A DNA stretch of 43,126 nt, taken from the NCBI GenBank assembly GCA_002773845.1, contig PEZZ01000034.1, positions 1-43,126 on the forward strand. Reading direction: 5' to 3'. The number at the start of each line of letters is the position of its first letter. Positions within the stretch are counted from its first letter, which is position 1. The DNA is from Candidatus Buchananbacteria bacterium CG10_big_fil_rev_8_21_14_0_10_42_9. Its GTDB lineage: Bacteria; Patescibacteriota; Patescibacteriia; Buchananbacterales; 21-14-0-10-42-9. Below the pieces are notes generated by a model, which was not told the origin of the DNA, did no database searches, and worked only from the letters and a program-made list of their open reading frames with translations. This document shows positions 3,495 through 27,572 of the stretch, in pieces. A program made the position numbers and the translations under genes.

Positions 3495-3525
3495 GCGGCC
3501 GTACCCCCGAAGGGAAATCGGCCGC
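3495..3525 (-). terminator. Strong hairpin after the zinc-ribbon orphan gene
   Basis: GCGGCCG and CGGCCGC pair around an inner TCCC/GGGG stem with a TTCG-type loop. A smaller hairpin (GTGTC...GGACAC, near 3534-3552) precedes it. The T tail is poor (CTTTGTC), so this may be a processing or stability structure rather than an efficient terminator. Confidence 0.5.
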
Positions 3526-3555: not shown

Positions 3556-4176
3556 TTATGGGCCGCCACTGCCCATGATGAGGTCAAACAAGTCGTGCGG
3601 GTCTGCCCCTTTAAGCTCCCGCACCTCTTCGTCTGGTATCGACGGAACGCTCTGTTCGTCTTGCTCTGTGAGGCGAAAAAGTTCTATCGCCTTGCCGGCC
3701 TCCTCTAGGCCGTAGAGATACTCCCTCGCCCTCTCCAGCACACCCCTGTGGATCAGGCTAGTGAAGTGTTCTATGGCTTCATCCCTGCCGGCATGCAGCA
3801 AGGCATCCTTGTCGATTGGCACCATTTCTCCATAGAACAGCAGAACCATCTCTCCTGACGGGATTTTTGTTGCCCACGTAATGCCCTCTGGGCTTTCGTC
3901 GGCGTAAAAAAAATCGCGCAGGCGTTTCTTTATCAGTACAGCAACTGCCCTTTCCAAGCAGTACAGTTTTTCTGCCGTACTTACATCTTCCGACAGTAAG
4001 ACTTTGCCGTCTACCGGCCACGCCAGACCGAGTAAAGCCAAGCGGGCTTCGCCACACTTGCAAGGAAAGAGTGCAAGGTTCATTGGTGGCAGTTGAGGCT
4101 GGTCCCAATACTCCCTGCAGCTTGGACATCTCGCATCTTCAGGGTTCCACTCTGGAACCAACATCGGGTCCTCCAT
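3556..4176 (-). CDS. Orphan zinc-ribbon-like protein (GC-rich cassette 1)
   Basis: The 206-residue protein of unknown family has an N-terminal cysteine pair CPSC (17-20) and a second pair CKC (39-41), which could form a zinc ribbon. The rest is mixed helix and strand, rich in Glu, Leu and Ala, and ends in a glycine tail. No catalytic motif is recognised. Codon use differs sharply from neighbouring core genes: GAG, CTC, GTC and GCC are frequent, while neighbours favour AAA, ATT and TTA. The start is fixed by a perfect SD, AGGAGGTGTTTCATGGA, which almost matches the start of the cassette gene at 5601. A promoter, the gene and a strong hairpin make a self-contained unit between tRNA-Leu and pgi. 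Likely acquired; function unknown. Confidence 0.75.
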   Translation of the reverse strand: MEDPMLVPEWNPEDARCPSCREYWDQPQLPPMNLALFPCKCGEARLALLGLAWPVDGKVLLSEDVSTAEKLYCLERAVAVLIKKRLRDFFYADESPEGITWATKIPSGEMVLLFYGEMVPIDKDALLHAGRDEAIEHFTSLIHRGVLERAREYLYGLEEAGKAIELFRLTEQDEQSVPSIPDEEVRELKGADPHDLFDLIMGSGGP

Positions 4177-4212
4177 GAAACACCTCCTTTAGGAGAGGAC
4201 ACTCCTATATTA

Positions 4213-4241
4213 ATCTTGCTCCAGGCAAATTGCTTTGTCAA
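4213..4241 (-). promoter_or_regulatory. Probable promoter of cassette 1
   Basis: TTGACA (4241-4236) is followed after 17 bases by CAAGAT (4218-4213), a weak -10. Other A/T-rich hexamers a few bases further downstream could serve instead. The leader then carries the strong SD. Confidence 0.45.
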
Positions 4242-4278
4242 ACATAAAACACCATCTTTGGTAAAAACAATGGTGTTT
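4241..4278 (-). terminator. Terminator of the glucose-6-phosphate isomerase gene
   Basis: On the minus strand AAACACCAT (4278-4270) pairs with ATGGTGTTT (4255-4247), followed by TTATGTTTG. It lies just after the pgi stop codon at 4284. Confidence 0.7.
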
Positions 4279-4283
4279 AAATA

Positions 4284-5519
4284 TCAATCTTTTAAAGCCT
4301 GAAACTTAATCCGCTTTTCAAAACTAATTTGCTTAGCCGCTTCTACTTCTGGCTGGTCAAATGGATTTTGGTTGCGAAGCAGTGCCGAGTACACGGTAAA
4401 GTAATGCCAAAAAGATAAAAACCAACCAACTGATTCGTAGCTTGTGTCTTTAACTGTCATCACAATATGCGGAATGCCGCGTGCTTCCGCGTTTTCACGC
4501 ACACCTTGATAATCAAAATGCAACCCGGCGTCAAATGGCACTTTATGAATATCACTCAATATCCCGTCTCGCAATGGCACGTCGCGTAAATCCTCCGGGA
4601 TTTTATTAGCCATCTTATTTTGTTGCATAAAACGGTCATTTACAATAAAAAATCCTAATACATTTTTACGACCGCCAAAAAATCTTTGGTTAGTGTGGTG
4701 TTGGCTCTCTGGTGCCATATCGCCAAAAATAGTTTGGCCCCTGCCGCCCTTGCCTGTACTTTCGTGAATAAGCTGAATCATCAATGGTAAAAATCCGGCA
4801 TACTCAAATGAATAAATCGGCGCAAAAATTTCGGTATAACCTTTGCGTTCCAATAAATAACAATACAGGGCCGACAAAAAAGCTTGGTTTTGTTTTAGGT
4901 TAGCGCGATAACCATAATCTTTGTACGCAATATTGGCGGCTTTATCAATGGCTTTAATATCTAAACCCATCAAGTAAGCAATGCCGTAAGCGCACTCACT
5001 GCGCCCGCTGTAACGACCGCCAACCTCAGGATGCTCTAAAATATCCCATTTTCTTTTTTTAGCCACCTCGCACAATGTGCCTTTATGCGGAGAAGTAACA
5101 GGTAAAATTTTGTACTCATCCCAAAAAGCGGTCAGGGGCTCAAGCACATCTAAATTAGTACCTGATTTGGAAATTGGCATGACTAAAGTATCTTTTGGCC
5201 TGTATTTCTTTTTCAGCTCGGTAATTAACTGCGGCTCCATCGTGCTTAAAAAGAAAACGTCTTTTTTGTTCCGCTTGGTTTGTAGGGCCTGATAATAAGC
5301 CAAAGCGCTAGTACGTGAGCCACCATTAGCAATTACAATAATATTTTTATACTTTTGATACGGCTTACAAGTACGGGCAATTTTATTATAATTTGGTTTA
5401 TGTGTTTGAAAAGATGGCAGCTCTAACTTTGCTAATCTTTTTTTAAAAGCGCCAAAGTTAAATTTTTTAGTATCCACTTTGGCGTACCGCGCATCTATTA
5501 CAATTACATTTTTTGACAT
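4284..5519 (-). CDS. pgi: Glucose-6-phosphate isomerase
   Basis: The enzyme interconverts glucose-6-phosphate and fructose-6-phosphate in the cytosol. The protein shows a sugar-isomerase (SIS) fold: IVIANGGSRTSALAYYQAL (phosphate loop), the PISKSGTNLD block, the signature-like GGRYSGRSECAYGIAY, and the HESTGKGGRG segment carrying the conserved Glu, followed by a conserved His-rich stretch. At about 411 residues it is shorter than the 550-residue E. coli enzyme and nearer the short bacterial/archaeal PGIs. An 18-residue upstream extension is possible, but I chose ATG 5519 because a TATAAT (5534-5529) would start the transcript only 3 bases before it. It feeds glucose released by the GH15/GH57/ROK genes elsewhere in the window into glycolysis. 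Confidence 0.88.
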   Translation of the reverse strand: MSKNVIVIDARYAKVDTKKFNFGAFKKRLAKLELPSFQTHKPNYNKIARTCKPYQKYKNIIVIANGGSRTSALAYYQALQTKRNKKDVFFLSTMEPQLITELKKKYRPKDTLVMPISKSGTNLDVLEPLTAFWDEYKILPVTSPHKGTLCEVAKKRKWDILEHPEVGGRYSGRSECAYGIAYLMGLDIKAIDKAANIAYKDYGYRANLKQNQAFLSALYCYLLERKGYTEIFAPIYSFEYAGFLPLMIQLIHESTGKGGRGQTIFGDMAPESQHHTNQRFFGGRKNVLGFFIVNDRFMQQNKMANKIPEDLRDVPLRDGILSDIHKVPFDAGLHFDYQGVRENAEARGIPHIVMTVKDTSYESVGWFLSFWHYFTVYSALLRNQNPFDQPEVEAAKQISFEKRIKFQALKD

Positions 5520-5528
5520 ATTGAATAC

Positions 5529-5534
5529 ATTATA
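5529..5534 (-). promoter_or_regulatory. -10 element of a near-leaderless pgi transcript
   Basis: TATAAT on the minus strand ends 9 bases before the pgi ATG, predicting a 3-base 5' leader. The -35 region (CTCAAG at 17 spacing) is weak. The region is shared with the divergent promoter of cassette 2. Confidence 0.6.
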
Positions 5535-5600
5535 ACACAAGTTGACTAGTTCTTGAGAAAAGTATAAGGTCACTTAGATCCGCCAACCAGGAGGTGTATC

Positions 5601-5894
5601 ATGGACGGAACACTGATTATTCAATTTCAACGCTGGCGAAAGCGTTGGACCCGCACGCTCGTCTTGGCTGGCCGTGCAGCCGGGGCGAAAACCCACTGGC
5701 GGGCCACCATGGTCAAGCCGGGTGAAGCCTCTGAGGGTAGCCTTGCGCCTCCCTCTTACGAGATAACCCTTGAAGATGGCAACAACACCATACCGGCGCT
5801 GGTAACGTGGCCTAACCACGTGCCCACCCTAATCCGCACCGATACCGGCCAGCGGCTTGGCACGGTGAAAACCCTACGCACTGTCTACGCGTAG
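5601..5894 (+). CDS. Orphan protein, GC-rich cassette 2, first gene
   Basis: The 97-residue basic protein has no signal peptide or membrane segment. The N-terminal third is Arg- and Trp-rich (FQRWRKRWTR), and the remainder looks beta-rich, ending RTDTGQRLGTVKTLRTVYA. No family is recognised. The start is set by a perfect SD: AGGAGGTGTATCATGGA, one base different from the start region of the orphan gene at 4176. Codons are GC-ending, unlike neighbouring core genes. A second small gene follows after 12 bases with its own SD, so the two form a bicistron with a strong terminator. It is transcribed divergently from pgi; a possible promoter is TTGACT near 5540 with TATAAG 15 bases on. Function unknown; likely acquired. 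Confidence 0.7.
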   Translation: MDGTLIIQFQRWRKRWTRTLVLAGRAAGAKTHWRATMVKPGEASEGSLAPPSYEITLEDGNNTIPALVTWPNHVPTLIRTDTGQRLGTVKTLRTVYA

Positions 5895-5906
5895 AAGGAG
5901 GCATAT

Positions 5907-6143
5907 ATGCCGCCCGCGCTACAGGTTAGTCCGCTCGACGATGCGGCAGTTGGGGACGTGTTCTGTCTCCAGGTGGACGTGTTGGGGCAGGCGCACTGTC
6001 GCATCGAGGCAGTCACCGCTCGCACCCGGACGGTCTATGCAGTCGAACAAAGTGGGCGAAAAATCCGCCGCCACAAAGGTGGATGGTACTTCGACTATGG
6101 CCCTTATGGCTTGCTCGAAATCATCAGCGCGGAGAAGTGCTGA
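5907..6143 (+). CDS. Orphan protein, GC-rich cassette 2, second gene
   Basis: The 78-residue protein has no recognised family. The pattern VGDVFCLQVDV...HCRIEAVTARTRTVYAV is beta-rich, followed by a basic patch SGRKIRRHKGGW and an aromatic-glycine string YFDYGPYG, suggesting a small beta-barrel or SH3-like fold. It has two internal cysteines plus one at the C-terminus. Its start has a perfect SD (AAGGAGG, 6 bases before ATG). It is 12 bases downstream of the first cassette gene, with the same GC-rich codon use, and is followed at once by a strong terminator. The pairing of two tiny genes suggests they act together; no function can be assigned. Confidence 0.7.
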   Translation: MPPALQVSPLDDAAVGDVFCLQVDVLGQAHCRIEAVTARTRTVYAVEQSGRKIRRHKGGWYFDYGPYGLLEIISAEKC

Positions 6144-6165: not shown

Positions 6166-6204
6166 CGCCCCGCCGGTCTGTGTCCGACGGGGCGTTCTCT
6201 TTTA
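6166..6204 (+). terminator. Intrinsic terminator of cassette 2
   Basis: CGCCCCGCCGG (6166-6176) pairs with CCGACGGGGCG (6184-6194) around a 7-base loop, then TTCTCTTTTATT. A very stable canonical terminator that ends just as the next promoter begins. Confidence 0.9.
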
Positions 6205-8561: not shown

Positions 8562-8712
8562 AACAACTGGGTCCTGAATTAAATTCAGGACGACAGTATT
8601 TTAGCAGCCCCCTCTCTTGTCGTCCCAAACCATGCGCTCGGCTTGACTGAGTATTGTTACAGAACCTCTAATAGATAGAGATTCCGGCTCAAGGCCGGAA
8701 TGACAACACTTT
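8562..8712. repeat. Dispersed palindromic repeat (REP-like, family A)
   Basis: Two adjacent inverted units: GTCCTGAAT...ATTCAGGAC (about 8571-8592) and AGATTCCGGCTCAAGGCCGGAATGAC (core near 8680-8704). The second unit recurs almost unchanged at 9917-9949, and related units occur at about 13358-13405 and 27478-27548. The rest of the 8538-8711 spacer holds no recognisable gene. Confidence 0.8.
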
Positions 8713-9389
8713 TATTTTTTCTTATTCTTATCCCGCCAGTCTTTTATTTTAGCGTGGTCGCCTGAAAGCAACACTTTTGGCACGCTTAGCTTTTTTCGGC
8801 CGTGCTTAACGGTTTCAGGTCTTGTGTACTGGGGGTACTCAACGTAATCATCACCTTTGGAAAACGTTTCTTCGGTCAACGCCTCATCGTGCCCAACCAC
8901 CCCGGGCACGTGCCGCGCGACGGTTTCAGTAATTACCATGGCCGGCAATTCCCCGCCAGCCAGCACATATTTTCCAATGGAAATTTTTTCATCAATTAAT
9001 TCTTCTACCCGCGAATCAAAACCTTCGTATCGCCCGCATAAAATTATGAGCTGGTCATATTGCGACAAGCGCTTAGCTTCTTTTTGGGTTAACTTTTTGC
9101 CTTCTGGTGCGGTCATTATTATTCGCGCTTTCTTTGTGCGCTTAATTGATTTTAGCGCCTTGGCAATTGGTTCAAACATTAAAATCATCCCCGGCCCTCC
9201 GCCGTACGGGCGGTCATCAACTGATTTATGCGGATCAGATTTTTTAGCGAACTTTCGCAAGTCTAAAATGTTAATTTTAATCAACTTTTTTTTCTGTGCC
9301 CGCGCTAAAATGGTTGAATTAAAATATTCACTAAATACGTTTGGGAAAATTGTAACAATGTCAAATTGAATGGACTTCTTTTTTGGCAT
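8712..9389 (-). CDS. trmD: tRNA (guanine37-N1)-methyltransferase
   Basis: TrmD methylates G37 next to the anticodon of several tRNAs using SAM, preventing +1 frameshifting. The 225-residue sequence has the family landmarks: FDIVTIFPNVF at the start, the DDRPYGGGPGMI block, the knotted SAM site with ILCGRYEGFDSRVEE, and GKYVLAGGELPAMV, followed by the linker and the RPE of the C-terminal domain. The start at ATG 9389 is supported by the N-terminal alignment and by an extended -10 (TGGTATAGT) that places transcription exactly on the A of the ATG. It is downstream of rpsP and khpA, the common rpsP-trmD neighbourhood, but a terminator and this promoter separate it from khpA. Confidence 0.95.
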   Translation of the reverse strand: MPKKKSIQFDIVTIFPNVFSEYFNSTILARAQKKKLIKINILDLRKFAKKSDPHKSVDDRPYGGGPGMILMFEPIAKALKSIKRTKKARIIMTAPEGKKLTQKEAKRLSQYDQLIILCGRYEGFDSRVEELIDEKISIGKYVLAGGELPAMVITETVARHVPGVVGHDEALTEETFSKGDDYVEYPQYTRPETVKHGRKKLSVPKVLLSGDHAKIKDWRDKNKKK

Positions 9390-9881: not shown

Positions 9882-9950
9882 ATTGTCATCCTGAACTTGT
9901 TTCAGGATCTCTATCTGAATAGAGATTCCGGATCAAGTCCGGAATGACAT
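9882..9950. repeat. Dispersed palindromic repeat (REP-like, family A)
   Basis: GTCATCCTGAAC..GTTTCAGGAT is followed by AGATTCCGGATCAAGTCCGGAATGAC. It abuts the 3' end of rpsP and overlaps the rpsP-khpA spacer. The second half is nearly identical to the copy at about 8677-8704. Confidence 0.8.
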
Positions 9951-9952
9951 TA

Positions 9953-10429
9953 TTATTCTTCCTTTTTCTCTTCTGATTTTTCAACTGGCTTGTCCTCTTT
10001 GGGCGCTTCATCTTTCTTTTCTTCCTTAGGTGCTTTTTCGGCAGGCTTGTCTTCTGCTGATTTATCTTCAGTCTTGACTTTGTCATCAGCTGGCTTGGCT
10101 TCTTCGCCTTCCGGTTTCTTTGCCGCCTCAGCCGCTTTTTCAGCTTCCGCTTTCTTGCGGCGTTTCTTGCCGGAACTCGCGACTTGCTTTTCAGCTTCAA
10201 TTACATTTTGATCAATTAAAAGATTGTGCACGGTCGGGGAGGGTTTAGCACCTTTGCTAATCCAATACAAAATCCGATCTTTCTTCACTTCAGTGACTTT
10301 GGATCTGGGGTTATAATTCCCTAGAATTTCCAAATTGTCGCCCCAGGGATCTTTGGTTTTTTCCGAAACCACAATACGGTAAGTCGGTTGTTTTTTCTTA
10401 CCCATGCGGCTGAATCTGATTACTAGCAT
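9953..10429 (-). CDS. rpsP: Ribosomal protein bS16 with long charged C-terminal tail
   Basis: This is the small-subunit ribosomal protein. Residues 1-78 match bS16: MLVIRFSRMGKKKQPTYRIV at the start, the LGNYNPRS turn, and KGAKPSPTVHNLL. The usual protein is about 80-90 residues; here it runs to 158 with a low-complexity tail (about 85-158) of Lys, Glu, Ala and Pro (KKPEGEEAKPADDK-like repeats) that is probably disordered. Long charged extensions of ribosomal proteins occur in some CPR bacteria. There is no SD; a GATAAT -10 (10447-10442) predicts a leader of about 6 bases. First gene of the rpsP-khpA pair. Confidence 0.95.
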   Translation of the reverse strand: MLVIRFSRMGKKKQPTYRIVVSEKTKDPWGDNLEILGNYNPRSKVTEVKKDRILYWISKGAKPSPTVHNLLIDQNVIEAEKQVASSGKKRRKKAEAEKAAEAAKKPEGEEAKPADDKVKTEDKSAEDKPAEKAPKEEKKDEAPKEDKPVEKSEEKKEE

Positions 10430-10543: not shown

Positions 10544-10572
10544 TTGACGCATTGTTAATTTAGAGCTATAAT
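10544..10572 (+). promoter_or_regulatory. Promoter of cassette 3
   Basis: TTGACG (10544-10549) and TATAAT (10567-10572) are 17 bases apart. The predicted start is near 10579, so the RNA opens with the perfect hairpin CGCCAA-ATGG-TTGGCG (10580-10595). Confidence 0.85.
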
Positions 10573-10589
10573 GATATGTCGCCAAATGG

Positions 10590-10802
10590 TTGGCGGCAAA
10601 AATTACGTCCTCAGGGGCGCGGAAAGGCTTTGTTTTGCAAATCAAAATCATCCATCACTCAAGCAGCCCTCGAAGCGTGGAGAATGACGCCAACAAGTTC
10701 CTCGCCAGTCCGGCGGTGTCGGGCCGTCGGGTTCGCCCGCTAACCAACTCAGAGGGTGTGGTCACGGGCGTCGTGATCGAGTACGAGGTGGCCAAGGAGT
10801 AG
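10590..10802 (+). CDS. Orphan small protein, GC-rich cassette 3
   Basis: The reading frame of up to 70 residues opens with TTG; the true start is uncertain. The central and C-terminal parts look protein-like (GFVLQIKIIHHSSSP, then EGVVTGVVIEYEVAKE) and use GC-ending codons such as GTC, GTG, ATC and GAG. The opening codons lie inside a 5' hairpin with no SD. An ATG at 10586 lies in another frame that stops after 33 codons; joining the two frames would need a +1 shift near 10622, so a lost base or sequencing error is possible. A strong promoter and terminator bracket the unit. It could also be a structured RNA with an incidental ORF. Function unknown. Confidence 0.45.
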   Translation: MAAKITSSGARKGFVLQIKIIHHSSSPRSVENDANKFLASPAVSGRRVRPLTNSEGVVTGVVIEYEVAKE

Positions 10803-10808
10803 GCCGCC

Positions 10809-10850
10809 AACGCAGTTCAAGGCCACTGCGTTATCAACAGGCCTTTTTGT
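10809..10850 (+). terminator. Terminator of cassette 3 with alternative stems
   Basis: AACGCAG (10809-10815) pairs with CTGCGTT (10826-10832). Alternatively AAGGCC (10819-10824) pairs with GGCCTT (10841-10846) just before TTTTG. The two stems are mutually exclusive, so the structure could switch. The simplest reading is an intrinsic terminator. Confidence 0.65.
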
Positions 10851-13555: not shown

Positions 13556-16288
13556 ATGGCGAAAATAAAAAAATTCGTGGTAATTGACGGCCATGCCTTA
13601 ATTCACCGGGCATGGCATGTCTTGCCGCCACTAACCACTCAAGACGGTACGCTAGTTAATGCTGTGTATGGCTTTACCGCCATGCTGCTTAAAGTTATCA
13701 AAGACATCAAGCCCGAATATTTAGTTTTAACTTTTGATCTAAAAGGGCCAACGCATCGACATGAAGAATATAAAGAATACAAAGCGCATCGGGAAGCCCC
13801 GCCCGACGAGCTAATAGCCCAATTTGATTTGGTTCGCGAGGTTGTCCGCGCTTTTAATATACCCATTTTTGAAAAACAGGGGTTTGAAGCAGACGATTTA
13901 ATCGGCACGCTTGTTAAACACTCCAAGACTAAAGGTATTCACAAAATAATTGTCACCGGTGATATGGATGCGCTGCAATTAGTTGATGCCGAAACCACAG
14001 TAATGACCGTGAAAAAAGGCGCTACCGACACCATTGACTACGGGCCAACACAAGTAAAAGAAAAATATGGCGGGCTTGCCCCTGAACAATTAATTGACTT
14101 TAAGTCTTTGCGGGGCGATCCGTCTGATAACATTCCGGGCGTCAAGGGCATTGGCGAAAAAACTGCCATTACTTTGCTTAGCGAATTTAAAAATTTAGAC
14201 GGTGTTTATAAAAACATTGATTCGCCTAAAATCAAAGACCGTGTTCGCGAGCTTTTAAAAGAGTACAAAAAAGATGCCTACTTGTCACAAAAATTGGCAG
14301 CCATCAAAACCGACGTGCCGATAAAATTTTCTTTAAATGAAACTATTACTAAAGATTTTGATGTTGATAAGGCAGTTAAAATTTTTCAAAAATTTGAGTT
14401 TAAATCATTAATTAATCAACTGCCTAAATCTAGCCAGCCAAAAACACGGCAAACCCAACTAATGCTCGGTAAAATGGTTGACACTAAGTCGCGGGTTAAA
14501 CAGTTTGACTACACTTTAATTAACAGCCAAAAAGACTTTGATGATTTTTATAAAGAGCTGGCCGGGCAAAAATTGTTTGCTTTTGACACCGAAACAAGCT
14601 ACCTTGATCCTTTTTTCTCCGATCTGCTAGGCATCAGTTTTTCATGGCAAGCCAAAAAAGGTTATTATCTGACCAACCAAATTATCCAAAAAAATTTAGA
14701 CGCGCTAAATAAAATTTTTAACGATTCAAAAATTAAAAAAGTCGGGCATAACATTAAATACGACTTGGAAGTAGTTGAAAGCCATGGCCTTAAAGTGCAA
14801 GGAGTGCATTTTGACACAATGCTTGCCGCCTATTTATCCAACCCGGGTAACCGCGCATTAAAACTTGATAATTTAGCTTTTACTGAATTCGGCCATCAAA
14901 TGATTACGCTTGAAGAAATCGCCGGTAAAAAATTATCGCCCAAAGACAAAACTGTAGATTTATCGGTTGTGCCGATTGAAATAATGTCTGACTATTCTTG
15001 TGAGGACGCTGATTTTACATATCGCTTAATTAAACCTCTGGCAAAACAACTCAGGCAAAGCAATAACGAAGGCATTTTATTCAAAATTGAAGTGCCGCTA
15101 GTGCGCGTACTCGCGGACATGGAACGCGTTGGCATTGAAATTGATGTCGGCTTTCTGAAAAAAATGTCGAGCAGCTTTTCAAAAAAAATTGCAACCTTAG
15201 AAACTAAAATTTATAAAATGGCGGGCACTAAATTTAACATTAGTTCACCGCAGCAACTCAAAGAAATCCTTTTTGAAAAACTTGAAATTTCAACCGAAGG
15301 GCTAGGCAAAACTAAAACTGGAATCTCTACGGCGGCCGCTGAATTAGAAAAAATGCGCGGCCAGCACCCGATTATAGATTTAATTAGCCAATATCGCGAA
15401 TTAACCAAGCTGCAAAACACCTATTTAGACGCTTTGCCAGAACTAGTCAATGACGACGGCCGAGTACGAACGCAATTTAATCAAACTATCGCTGCTACCG
15501 GCCGGCTATCTTCATCCAATCCCAATTTACAAAATATCCCCATGCGAACCGATATCGGCCGTGAAATTCGTAAAGCTTTTGTCGCCGGACGCGGAAAAAA
15601 AATATTATCTGCTGATTACAACCAAATTGAACTTCGCATTATCGCATCTTTGGCTAACGACGCCAAAATGATTAATTCATTTAAAAAAGGGGAAGATATT
15701 CACACGCGAACTGCCGCCGACATTAATGAAATACCGCTAGATAAGGTGGCCAAAAAAGATCGTTACGCCGCCAAAGCGATTAACTTTGGCATAATTTACG
15801 GCATGGGTTATGTAAGTTTATCCAAATACGCAGACATTCCCCGCGAACAGGCCCAAGATTTTATTGATCGCTATTTTAATTTGCACACGCCCATTCACAA
15901 CTATCTAGAAGAAACCAAAGAAATTGCCCGCAAACAAGGTTATGCTGAAACTATTTTTGGCCGCCGACGATTTTTTCCTGAAATCAGTTCCAGCCAAAAC
16001 CAAGTTCGCGCCGCCGCTGAACGCGCCGCCGTTAACCACCCGATTCAAGGTACCGCCGCTGACTTAATGAAGCTTGCCATGATAGAAATATACAAAGGCT
16101 TGCCCAAAATCAGCCGCGACGCTAAAATGTTACTTCAAGTTCATGACGAATTAGTCTTTGAGGTGCCAAACAATGATCTTACCAAAGTCACTGAATTTAT
16201 TACCGACAAAATGGAAAATATTTATAAGCTCCGTTGCCCCATCGAAACGCACGTTCAAATAGGTCAAAATTGGGGCGAATTAAAGTAG
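13556..16288 (+). CDS. polA: DNA polymerase I
   Basis: The enzyme fills gaps and removes RNA primers during replication and repair. The 910 residues form three domains. The 5'-3' exonuclease (about 1-300) has FEADDLIGTLV and the H3TH segment GDPSDNIPGVKGIGEKTA. The 3'-5' proofreading domain (about 320-520) keeps its catalytic residues: FAFDTETS (near 341), VGHNIKYDLEV and SCEDADFTYRL. The polymerase domain (about 560-910) has motif A SADYNQIELRI (near 686), the O-helix AAKAINFGIIYGM (near 737) and motif C LQVHDELVFEV (near 860). Many bacterial PolI enzymes have lost proofreading, so an intact site is worth noting. The start ATG 13556 is preceded by AAGG and by the inverted-repeat leader described separately. 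Confidence 0.97.
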   Translation: MAKIKKFVVIDGHALIHRAWHVLPPLTTQDGTLVNAVYGFTAMLLKVIKDIKPEYLVLTFDLKGPTHRHEEYKEYKAHREAPPDELIAQFDLVREVVRAFNIPIFEKQGFEADDLIGTLVKHSKTKGIHKIIVTGDMDALQLVDAETTVMTVKKGATDTIDYGPTQVKEKYGGLAPEQLIDFKSLRGDPSDNIPGVKGIGEKTAITLLSEFKNLDGVYKNIDSPKIKDRVRELLKEYKKDAYLSQKLAAIKTDVPIKFSLNETITKDFDVDKAVKIFQKFEFKSLINQLPKSSQPKTRQTQLMLGKMVDTKSRVKQFDYTLINSQKDFDDFYKELAGQKLFAFDTETSYLDPFFSDLLGISFSWQAKKGYYLTNQIIQKNLDALNKIFNDSKIKKVGHNIKYDLEVVESHGLKVQGVHFDTMLAAYLSNPGNRALKLDNLAFTEFGHQMITLEEIAGKKLSPKDKTVDLSVVPIEIMSDYSCEDADFTYRLIKPLAKQLRQSNNEGILFKIEVPLVRVLADMERVGIEIDVGFLKKMSSSFSKKIATLETKIYKMAGTKFNISSPQQLKEILFEKLEISTEGLGKTKTGISTAAAELEKMRGQHPIIDLISQYRELTKLQNTYLDALPELVNDDGRVRTQFNQTIAATGRLSSSNPNLQNIPMRTDIGREIRKAFVAGRGKKILSADYNQIELRIIASLANDAKMINSFKKGEDIHTRTAADINEIPLDKVAKKDRYAAKAINFGIIYGMGYVSLSKYADIPREQAQDFIDRYFNLHTPIHNYLEETKEIARKQGYAETIFGRRRFFPEISSSQNQVRAAAERAAVNHPIQGTAADLMKLAMIEIYKGLPKISRDAKMLLQVHDELVFEVPNNDLTKVTEFITDKMENIYKLRCPIETHVQIGQNWGELK

Positions 16289-16291
16289 ATA

Positions 16292-16432
16292 AATAGTCTC
16301 CTCTCCCTTGGAGGGAGAGGACAAAGGTGAGGGGGTATAATGCATTACCTCGCTCTTACTCCCCCGCCAGGGTGGTTATGAAGCCATTAGGTCGGGCGAG
16401 CTCTCTCTTAAAGAGAGGGAGCCTGCTGTCAA
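16292..16432. repeat. Imperfect palindrome (repeat family B) after polA
   Basis: CCTCTCCCTTGGAGGGAGAGG with AAGGTGAGGG, then a mirror half containing CTCTCTCTTAAAGAGAGGGAG. It shares words with the element at 10870-10962 and fills the polA to acetyltransferase-remnant spacer. Confidence 0.65.
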
Positions 16433-16440
16433 ATTAAACA

Positions 16441-16885
16441 ATGAAAAAGTATCAAATAAAAAAATATTCTGATTCTGATCAACCTAGTGTGGCTAGTCTG
16501 GTGACCAAAGTGCTTCAAGAATATGGCTATCAATATAACAAAAAACTTGATAAAGACTTGGACGACCCAACAGAACACTACTTGAAGACTGGAGGTATGT
16601 TTTGGGTCATACCGAACGACAATACAATTATTGGGACGGTAGCCCTAAAGAAAAAAGGCGCCCAAGGAGAACTGAAAGGCTATACGTAGACAAGGATTGT
16701 CGTGGTATGGGATTGGGCTTAAGCCTTCTTAATGCAGTCATTCACTATTGTCAGGAAAACAAATAAAAACACTTAAATTAAACACAACAGAATCTTTTAG
16801 CGGTGCAATAAAATTCTATGAAAAAAATGGGTTTGCCACAACTAGAAAGATGGGCGATATTATTTACATGGAAAAACGCTTATAA
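16441..16885 (+). pseudogene. GNAT acetyltransferase gene with two frameshifts
   Basis: Reading across three frames gives a complete GNAT (Gcn5-related N-acetyltransferase) of about 147 residues. Frame 1 (16441-16689) holds the N-terminus through GTVALKKKG. Frame 2 continues with LYVDKDCRGMGLGLSLLNAV, the acetyl-CoA loop (R/Q-x-x-G-x-G/A type, here CRGMGLG). Frame 3 ends with FYEKNGFATT...YMEKRL and a stop at 16885. The breaks fall near 16676 (AAAGG, where AAAAGG would restore the frame) and near 16764 (CAAAT, where one more A would restore it). Both are single-base losses next to A runs, so this is either a recent pseudogene or a pair of sequencing or assembly errors. Confidence 0.8.
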
Positions 16886-20459: not shown

Positions 20460-20630
20460 TAATTACTTACACTTTATTTTTATTATAAAAATATTGGCTT
20501 ATTTTAAATAAATTCTCTTATAAATAATGAATCATCATATTTACACTTTAATAAATTTTAATAAAAATAACCTGTCATCATAATGGTGTGGTGACATACG
20601 CATCTAGATTTAGAGAAGGAGGTGGACTGG

Positions 20631-20729
20631 GTGGCCAAAAAAAATGCAGCAAAGAAAAACTCTCAAGAGTATTGCGTCGGCGACTTCGTCAAAGTAACTC
20701 GTCAAGATGTAAGTGAAAAAAAGAGGTGA
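20631..20729 (+). CDS. Orphan small protein, cassette 4, first gene
   Basis: The 32-residue protein starts at GTG with a perfect SD (AAGGAGGTG, about 8 bases upstream). The first half is Lys/Ala/Asn-rich (KKNAAKKN); the second half reads EYCVGDFVKVTRQDV, a small beta-like stretch. Its TGA stop overlaps the GTG of the next gene (GTGA), which predicts coupled translation. It may be the N-terminal part of a protein split by a frameshift, because the next frame lacks an SD of its own. No function is recognised. Confidence 0.5.
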   Translation: MAKKNAAKKNSQEYCVGDFVKVTRQDVSEKKR

Positions 20730-21241
20730 CGGCATGCGTCTTGGCAATCTACTTTGAGGGTGTACTGCTACGTCTGTGCCCCGTCGGCACAAAAGATTTC
20801 TTCTACAGAGATGTAAGGCATGGCCCCGTGGAAGTTGTCAAAAGGATCGGAGCCGACCTTGATAAGCTCGCAGGGGAGATTGGGTTTACCTTGGCAGTAA
20901 TGGCCTGCCAAAACGACCTCCCTGAAGGGTTGCTCGAATCCTTAAGCCCAACACGGTTGGCTGACATTGCGTCGGCTTGCTCCGGCTACGAAGGATTCGA
21001 TCAACCAATGAAGGATGCCATCGTCCCCCTGCTGGAGAAGAAAGGTGTCTACGAAGCTGTAAAAAAGGAAGCAAATAAACAGCTTACCGCCAAACATGTC
21101 AAAGAAGTCTGCAAGTTCGGCTGTGATGACCCAAGCAAAACATGTAGCTTCTTGACCGCTGGCCCAGGTGACGTGAGTTGCGCCAAGGGCACAGAGCTTG
21201 AGGGAGTAATTCACAACCAGAGCGGTTCATGGAACAGATGA
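20726..21241 (+). CDS. Orphan protein, cassette 4, second gene
   Basis: The 171-residue protein has no recognised family. It overlaps the previous stop by 4 bases and starts at GTG. Residues about 30-120 look helical and polar; the C-terminal part holds several cysteines (VCKFGCDDPSKTCSFL, and SCAKG further on) that could bind metal or form disulfides. There is no signal peptide or membrane segment. Codon use is GC-richer than the neighbouring TrmB-like gene. Its TGA stop overlaps the ATG of the third gene (ATGA). Part of the insertion element; function unknown. Confidence 0.65.
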   Translation: MTACVLAIYFEGVLLRLCPVGTKDFFYRDVRHGPVEVVKRIGADLDKLAGEIGFTLAVMACQNDLPEGLLESLSPTRLADIASACSGYEGFDQPMKDAIVPLLEKKGVYEAVKKEANKQLTAKHVKEVCKFGCDDPSKTCSFLTAGPGDVSCAKGTELEGVIHNQSGSWNR

Positions 21242-27066: not shown

Positions 27067-27095
27067 TTGACAGCGGGGAGTTTTTATTTTATGAT
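27067..27095 (+). promoter_or_regulatory. Promoter of cassette 5
   Basis: TTGACA (27067-27072) and TATGAT (27090-27095) are 17 bases apart. The predicted start is near 27102. A perfect SD (AGAGGAGG, 27113-27120) follows, seven bases before an ATG (27127). Confidence 0.85.
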
Positions 27096-27148
27096 GCGGG
27101 GTCTGCTACCTGAGAGGAGGTACGTTATGGATTAGGTGCAGTTTTGGG

Positions 27149-27439
27149 GTGGTAGCTTTTACCTCTAGTCTGTACGACTTTGGTGGGGTCACAAGTATTA
27201 CACAGTGGCTGGAGCTGGGAGTGTCAGTAGGATTTTTGACTGGCACCTACCTACTCGCGCACCAAAACCCAAGAGGCTTCTTCGGGTTTATGGTCATGAA
27301 CAGTTCTAACGCTGTTCTAATGACCATTCAAGACAAACCCCTGCTGGCAATTCAACAAATCGCGTCGTTGCTGTTCGTGGTTGACGCGTGCTCTCAGTAT
27401 CGGCTTAGGAGGGCCGAGACCGAGGACAACGGCTCTTAG
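27149..27439 (+). CDS. Small membrane protein, cassette 5, start disrupted
   Basis: The ORF of up to 96 residues has two hydrophobic stretches (about 19-38 and 44-82, with FGFMVMNSSNAVLM and IASLLFVVDAC), suggesting three short membrane segments, and a charged C-terminal tail. No family is recognised, though the pattern resembles small PnuC- or PQ-loop-like proteins. The start is odd: the strong SD serves ATG 27127, which reads Met-Asp-stop, while this frame begins upstream without a start and first offers GTG 27149 with no SD. A +1 shift after the second codon would join them (M-D-R-C-S-F-G-V-V-A...). So it is either frameshifted, recoded, or started at GTG by reinitiation. GC-ending codons mark it as another cassette. 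Confidence 0.55.
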   Translation: MVAFTSSLYDFGGVTSITQWLELGVSVGFLTGTYLLAHQNPRGFFGFMVMNSSNAVLMTIQDKPLLAIQQIASLLFVVDACSQYRLRRAETEDNGS

Positions 27440-27477: not shown

Positions 27478-27548
27478 ATTGTCATCCCGGCCTGTGGGCC
27501 GGAATCCAGAATTTAAAACTAGATCCCCGCCTTCGCGGGGATGACGTA
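27478..27548. repeat. Dispersed palindromic repeat (REP-like, family A)
   Basis: GTCATCCCGGCC...GGCCGGAATCCAG is followed by GATCCCCGCCTTCGCGGGGATGAC. It has the same GTCATCC/GGAATC arms as the copies near 8680, 9920 and 13360. It fills the cassette 5 to HAD spacer. Confidence 0.8.
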
Positions 27549-27572
27549 TCCGCAGGTTGTTTTTGTTTTAGG

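Follow-up and report, generated by a model that had tools for sequence, protein, structure and literature searches.

The genome from which this DNA derives has two classes of translation start, and the contrast between them is our main finding: its resident genes appear to do without a Shine-Dalgarno (SD) sequence although the 16S rRNA retains the anti-SD, and a strong SD marks what the evidence supports as a class of small genes that are autonomous, rich in GC and mostly unrelated to each other, here called cassettes. The cassettes stand out because the resident genes use no SD while the 16S keeps its anti-SD. We think it probable that they are autonomous accessory-gene units working like phage morons, dispersed through a Patescibacteria chromosome. 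The genome is probably of ABY1 type, since the best named relatives of its dnaN are Patescibacteria MAGs, including Falkow-, Uhr- and Kerfeldbacteria (~42–49% identity); the PGI gene gave no close relatives among the contigs searched. Below, "the window" is the whole stretch of 43,126 nucleotides that was analysed.

ORFs of both classes were called by one simple rule, whose choice of start favours an SD, and the resident set consists of conserved genes with a start on which homologues agree. None of the 73 conserved genes of this genome has even a 5-nt SD (SD5), so the cassette start word described below is not one that is common before core genes, and SD4 was found in 1.4% of them versus 2.7% in the control window. 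Conserved genes of relatives in the order gave SD5 in one of 75 and SD4 at the control rate (5.3% in both). SD4 stood at 1.9% versus 8.4% in the control window for 107 conserved genes at Falkow/Kerfeld/Uhrbacteria-type loci, and at 4.1% versus a control of 4.9% at Moran- and Paceibacteria-type loci. Pairing with the 16S tail had a median of -2.6 kcal/mol for the genome's own resident genes and -3.2 kcal/mol for mock windows, and the duplex energy of resident genes was equal to or weaker than that of mock windows. A T at position -1 was present in 63% of conserved genes in this genome and in 81% of those in the order relatives, and a search for leaderless initiation of resident genes gave no more than a weak TA...T peak at -12.

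GC-rich ORFs with no hit gave a different result: SD5 precedes 25 of 117 in this genome (p 2.5e-6) and 11 of 31 in relatives (p 2.9e-6). An ORF counts here as having no hit if ~0.9 Mb of compared sequence and the targeted searches yielded none, which is not proof of orphanhood; the concatenated-protein search missed some of the genome's own cassettes, so a lack of relatives in it carries little weight. Selecting for a strong SD, GC of at least 0.50, a length of at least 60 aa and no hit, we obtained at least 37 units across the genome, a set to which the five units of the sequence-only reading belong. As the 37 were selected on SD and GC, their SD energies are descriptive and not independent evidence. 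Eight loci of the DGR-target family in other genomes were found by homology, and their pairing with the 16S tail has a median of -11.7 kcal/mol. It is quite improbable that the cassette SDs are ordinary strong ones with no class identity, their strength merely reflecting how highly a few small genes are expressed. A strong SD may arise before any gene, and rpsU has one; however, conserved genes as a set do no better than mock windows, and it is among the GC-enriched no-hit ORFs that SDs cluster, both in this genome and in its relatives. We detected rpsU (bS21, PF01165) in 10 of 12 genomes, with a score just below the curated cut-off and the leader GAAAGGAAGGTGAAC in our own. The extended SD of rpsU in eight genomes ranges from -14.0 to -17.7 kcal/mol, with a median of -17.0, and rpsU with an extended SD and a GTG start is seen in this genome (L029:2573-2760) and in relatives (L344-L350).

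The cassettes also differ from their surroundings in composition. Strong-SD no-hit genes lie 9.6 GC points above conserved genes in this genome, and their mean GC runs from ~37% to 59% across five genomes. Promoter-like sites with at most two mismatches precede 30% of the cassettes versus 2% in shuffled sequence, individual cassettes varying; for conserved genes with a free upstream region the figures are 18% versus 4%. Terminators follow 27% of cassettes, against 3% in shuffled sequence. The sequence-only reading had credited each unit with its own start signals and most units with a promoter and a terminator-like hairpin; promoters and terminators are enriched in the set, but many cassettes have no recognisable one. 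The GC-rich codons that it described were confirmed. Most of the 15 cassette proteins run against Pfam were matchless, the exceptions being an M23 peptidase, an acyltransferase, a SLOG-type protein and an RND-like fragment; one more of the 15, a serine recombinase, is encoded at a possibly foreign contig end. The few proteins from known families (M23 peptidase, acyltransferase, SLOG) are a counterpoint to the moron-like reading. There was no clear enrichment of zinc-ribbon (5/37) or membrane proteins (3/37) relative to small resident proteins (2/46 and 7/46, respectively). Cassettes are mostly scattered singly between genes, with no array. At L009 (C5):2121-3763 three stand in tandem, two of them with nearly identical terminators (CGCCCACCCGGTTTTCGAACTAGGTGGGCG).

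The window holds five of these units, with resident genes (rRNA, tRNA, PGI, dnaN) as neighbours; the genes on its contig include those for LSU rRNA, tRNA-Leu and an LTD-domain protein, a PGI-like gene and dnaN. Their promoter-like sites and terminators are readings of the sequence. Cassette 1, on the minus strand, has a promoter-like site at 4213–4241 (TTGACA at 4241–4236, a spacer of 17, and CAAGAT at 4218–4213, a -10 box three mismatches from consensus) and the start word AGGAGGTGTTTCATGGA, an extended SD with ATG, at 4172–4188. It encodes a 206-aa protein of no known family with CxxC-type cysteines near its N-terminus (3556–4176), and ends in a terminator-like hairpin with a 7-bp GC-rich stem followed by TTTGTC (3495–3525). 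Its protein had no relative in 54 related genomes and none in IMG/VR. Cassette 2, on the plus strand, has the promoter-like site TTGACT-15-TATAAG (5542–5568) and the start word AGGAGGTGTATCATGGA (5589–5605), which pairs with the 16S tail at -15.6 kcal/mol, as does that of cassette 1. The word leads ORF a (97 aa, 5601–5894), which is of no known family and has no relative in 11 other genomes of its order. ORF b, a second cistron of 78 aa (5907–6143), also of no known family, has its own SD, AAGGAGG (5895–5901, -12.2 kcal/mol). A terminator with 10-bp GC-rich arms, a 7-nt loop and a T-rich tail follows at 6167–6204. As the sequence-only reading had proposed, the cassette 1 and cassette 2 proteins are not related to each other. 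They have no Pfam or PHROG match.

Cassette 3 (10544–10850, plus strand) is a GC islet with a TTGACG-17-TATAAT promoter-like site, a short unclear ORF and a hairpin, AACGCAGT/ACTGCGTT, followed by TTTTT. In cassette 4, also on the plus strand, the SD AAGGAGGTG (-16.9 kcal/mol) precedes a first short ORF from GTG 20631 (together 20616–20729), which overlaps the 171-aa main ORF (20726–21241) by GTGA. Cassette 5, again on the plus strand, has a TTGACA-17-TATGAT promoter-like site (27067–27095) and the reported start word, AGGAGGTACGTTATGGA (27115–27131), but its frame meets a stop at codon 3, and what follows (27127–27439) is a remnant of a membrane protein of ~190–200 aa, recognised by tblastn with the intact relatives L259, L261 and L263. 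An N-terminal scrap and the C-terminal part remain, matching residues 6–15 and ~102–188 of L259; the middle is missing and the frame is broken. Cassette 5 is a decayed gene, and its relatives are found in six genomes in other contexts.

No significant PHROG match was obtained for the window cassettes, and a viral origin for them was rejected on this result together with the lack of an IMG/VR relative of the cassette 1 protein. We found no DGR variable regions in the window cassettes and no repeat families at their borders. Elsewhere in the window, an intergenic REP-like palindromic repeat of the type GATTCCGG...CCGGAATGACA recurs at 8675–8723, 9919–9967 and 27487–27560, and an acetyltransferase-like (GNAT) gene at 16441–16880 is apparently split by a frame break.

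The near-identical start words of cassettes 1, 2 and 5, which drew attention to these units, all exist, although that of cassette 1 runs from 4188 to 4172 on the minus strand, one base off the 4189–4173 first given. The pattern AGGAGGT-N2-6-ATGGA occurs only three times in the whole 1.09-Mb genome, always in the window; the reversed pattern does not occur, and 100 shuffles produced none by chance. Words 1 and 2 are identical at 16 of 17 positions, and the sequences diverge immediately beyond the word edges. Among 67 same-spacing pairs drawn from 30 SD-led cassette starts they are the most alike outside the SD and ATG (7 of 8 positions), a match with a chance of ~3–5% by a simple base-match estimate and easier if a 16S-pairing TG is allowed. 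The genome's own 16S tail is GGATCACCTCCTTTCT, and AGGAGGTG is the exact complement of CACCTCCT within it, so the common part of words 1 and 2 reads as an extended SD, a spacer and ATG. Since AGGAGGTG complements the 16S tail and the identity stops at the word edges, the three words are not one copied sequence; the common 17-base word is better read as convergence on the 16S tail and a good spacing.

A shared, copied start module was accordingly rejected on the fit to the 16S tail and the similarity ending at the word. The two sources proposed in the sequence-only reading, a common donor and a gene-capture platform, fared no better. We regard as very improbable that the cassettes came from one source through integron-like, site-specific recombination, with a start module common by descent. 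The start words are similar, and 18 bases of cassette 2 (CAGGAGGTGTATCATGGA) also precede a different, unrelated 167-aa ORF in genome G131. A scan of 381 class genomes found the word AGGAGGTGTNTCATG at 19 places in 17 of them, versus one match to the reversed pattern; many of these sites lead mutually unlike ORFs with GC above that of the flanks, and some open only very short frames. However, AGGAGGTGTNTCATG also stands before ordinary-looking genes at at least two places (L281, L294), and the word is present in 44 IMG/VR stretches, as expected of a strong SD. The likeness stops at the word, no repeat family borders the cassettes in the window, and the units lie mostly single. The donor was rejected on GC: in one cassette family of nine members GC tracks that of the host (r = 0.80), and strong-SD no-hit genes span the wide GC range noted above.

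The best evidence for movement comes from a single cassette family, that of the DGR targets. The genome has two DGRs, at L014 (C10):2558-4562 and L019 (C15):15375-17825, each with a reverse transcriptase, a template and a target; the C10 DGR has an Avd-like gene, and the reverse transcriptase frames of both are cut or gapped. The cassette at C10 encodes a DGR target, whose variable repeat (C10:4060-4172) differs from the template (C10:3575-3687) at template adenines, except for four bases at the 3' edge. The C15 pair (16347-16439 / 15891-15983) is less clean, with 18 of 23 adenines changed and eight other mismatches. From just upstream of its promoter to its terminator, the C10 unit is 70–79% identical to two copies in G004, which are 80% identical to each other, and 69% identical to one copy in G005. 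The flanking genes differ among the loci in these three genomes, and further members also have a leader of the GGAGGATTGTC-ATG type. Conservation of the entire unit at unrelated loci, in genomes of two other families, points to its movement as a unit.

Occupied and empty sites were compared at recR|L21, editing-domain gene|scpA and gyrB|secE, which are sites other than those of the window's own cassettes. The first two are short gaps in most relatives, and gyrB|secE gives a mixed picture. Some relatives bear different strong-SD ORFs at these sites, a few of them perhaps orthologous. The zinc-ribbon proteins at gyrB|secE in G003 and G005 are 31% identical, and the editing|scpA cassettes of two families share orientation and cysteine pattern; these two sites look like fast-evolving positional orthologues, which speaks against the moron-like reading. 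The cassettes could on this evidence be old resident small-protein genes in stable positions, diverged beyond recognition, with the SD kept by selection and little transfer, a reading that we consider rather unlikely overall. It accounts for the same site, orientation and zinc-ribbon type recurring in different genera or families, and for family GC tracking host GC. It does not account for the sites empty in many relatives, for the DGR-target unit at unrelated loci with conserved non-coding ends, for the different contexts of the cassette 5 relatives, or for GC3 above that of the host in most of the nine-member family.

It is hardly credible that the GC-rich inserts are misassembled or misbinned foreign fragments. 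The source is a fragmented MAG, and a few contigs look foreign (the C2 start, C3 and C22), but short inserts flanked by native genes, with transcription-unit borders, number in the dozens, and similar units occur in independent relatives. The contigs in question, L026 (C22), L007 (C3) and the start of L006 (C2), carry recombinase- or transposase-like genes at GC-rich contig ends and are possibly foreign or misbinned.

In the moron-like reading that we favour, a cassette would bring its own sigma-70-like promoter and strong SD to one or two small GC-enriched ORFs, frequently closed by a terminator, and would lie between the transcription units of resident genes. Such units would be gained by horizontal exchange among Patescibacteria and expressed independently of their neighbourhood. 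If this is true, a strong SD would be a simple sequence test separating accessory from resident genes in Patescibacteria, which are among the least understood bacteria, and would yield a catalogue of likely exchanged genes. SD-less genes combined with an SD-led rpsU would then be known from a second large lineage, and the expression of accessory genes could be tied, in a testable way, to the composition of the ribosome. In the literature searched, which included few subscription papers, we came across no previous description of resident genes without an SD alongside SD-led accessory genes in Patescibacteria.

Four known systems invite comparison. In Flavobacterium johnsoniae the 16S tail is sequestered and rpsU retains an extended SD, and in Flavobacteriales a strong SD is typically found on rpsU alone (PMC9976891). 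The Bacteroidia-type system is further defined by bS21, bS18 and bS6 as the proteins that sequester the tail, and by raised translation of rpsU on ribosomes that lack bS21. Common to Bacteroidia and the genomes studied here are SD-less resident mRNAs, an intact anti-SD and a very strong extended SD on rpsU; here, however, dozens more genes, the cassettes, also bear strong SDs. One may speculate, though we think it unlikely, that bS21 hides the anti-SD as in Bacteroidia and that cassettes and rpsU belong to one translational regulon, served chiefly by bS21-lacking ribosomes, the mobile accessory genes being tuned to a specialised ribosome state. Integron gene cassettes are likewise small, mostly unknown ORFs added singly, whereas the present cassettes have their own promoter and SD and are mostly singly scattered, and the window showed neither an array nor a recombination site common to them. 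One clade of DGRs occurs only in Patescibacteria (PMC8144416), and the C10 and C15 cassettes resemble Patescibacteria DGR targets in that a template and a variable repeat lie close to a reverse transcriptase gene; most cassettes, among them all those in the window, are not DGR targets. Phage morons, which are accessory loci carried by temperate phages (PMC7067206), resemble the cassettes in being self-contained expression units of odd composition that lie between genes adjacent in relatives, with functions unrelated to their neighbours. The cassettes share with them their own promoters and terminators (as a set), a deviant composition and insertion between adjacent genes (recR|L21, editing|scpA). 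We do not class them as morons because they do not reside in a phage or prophage: they are spread through a cellular chromosome, at many sites per genome, and are marked by an SD in an otherwise SD-less genome.
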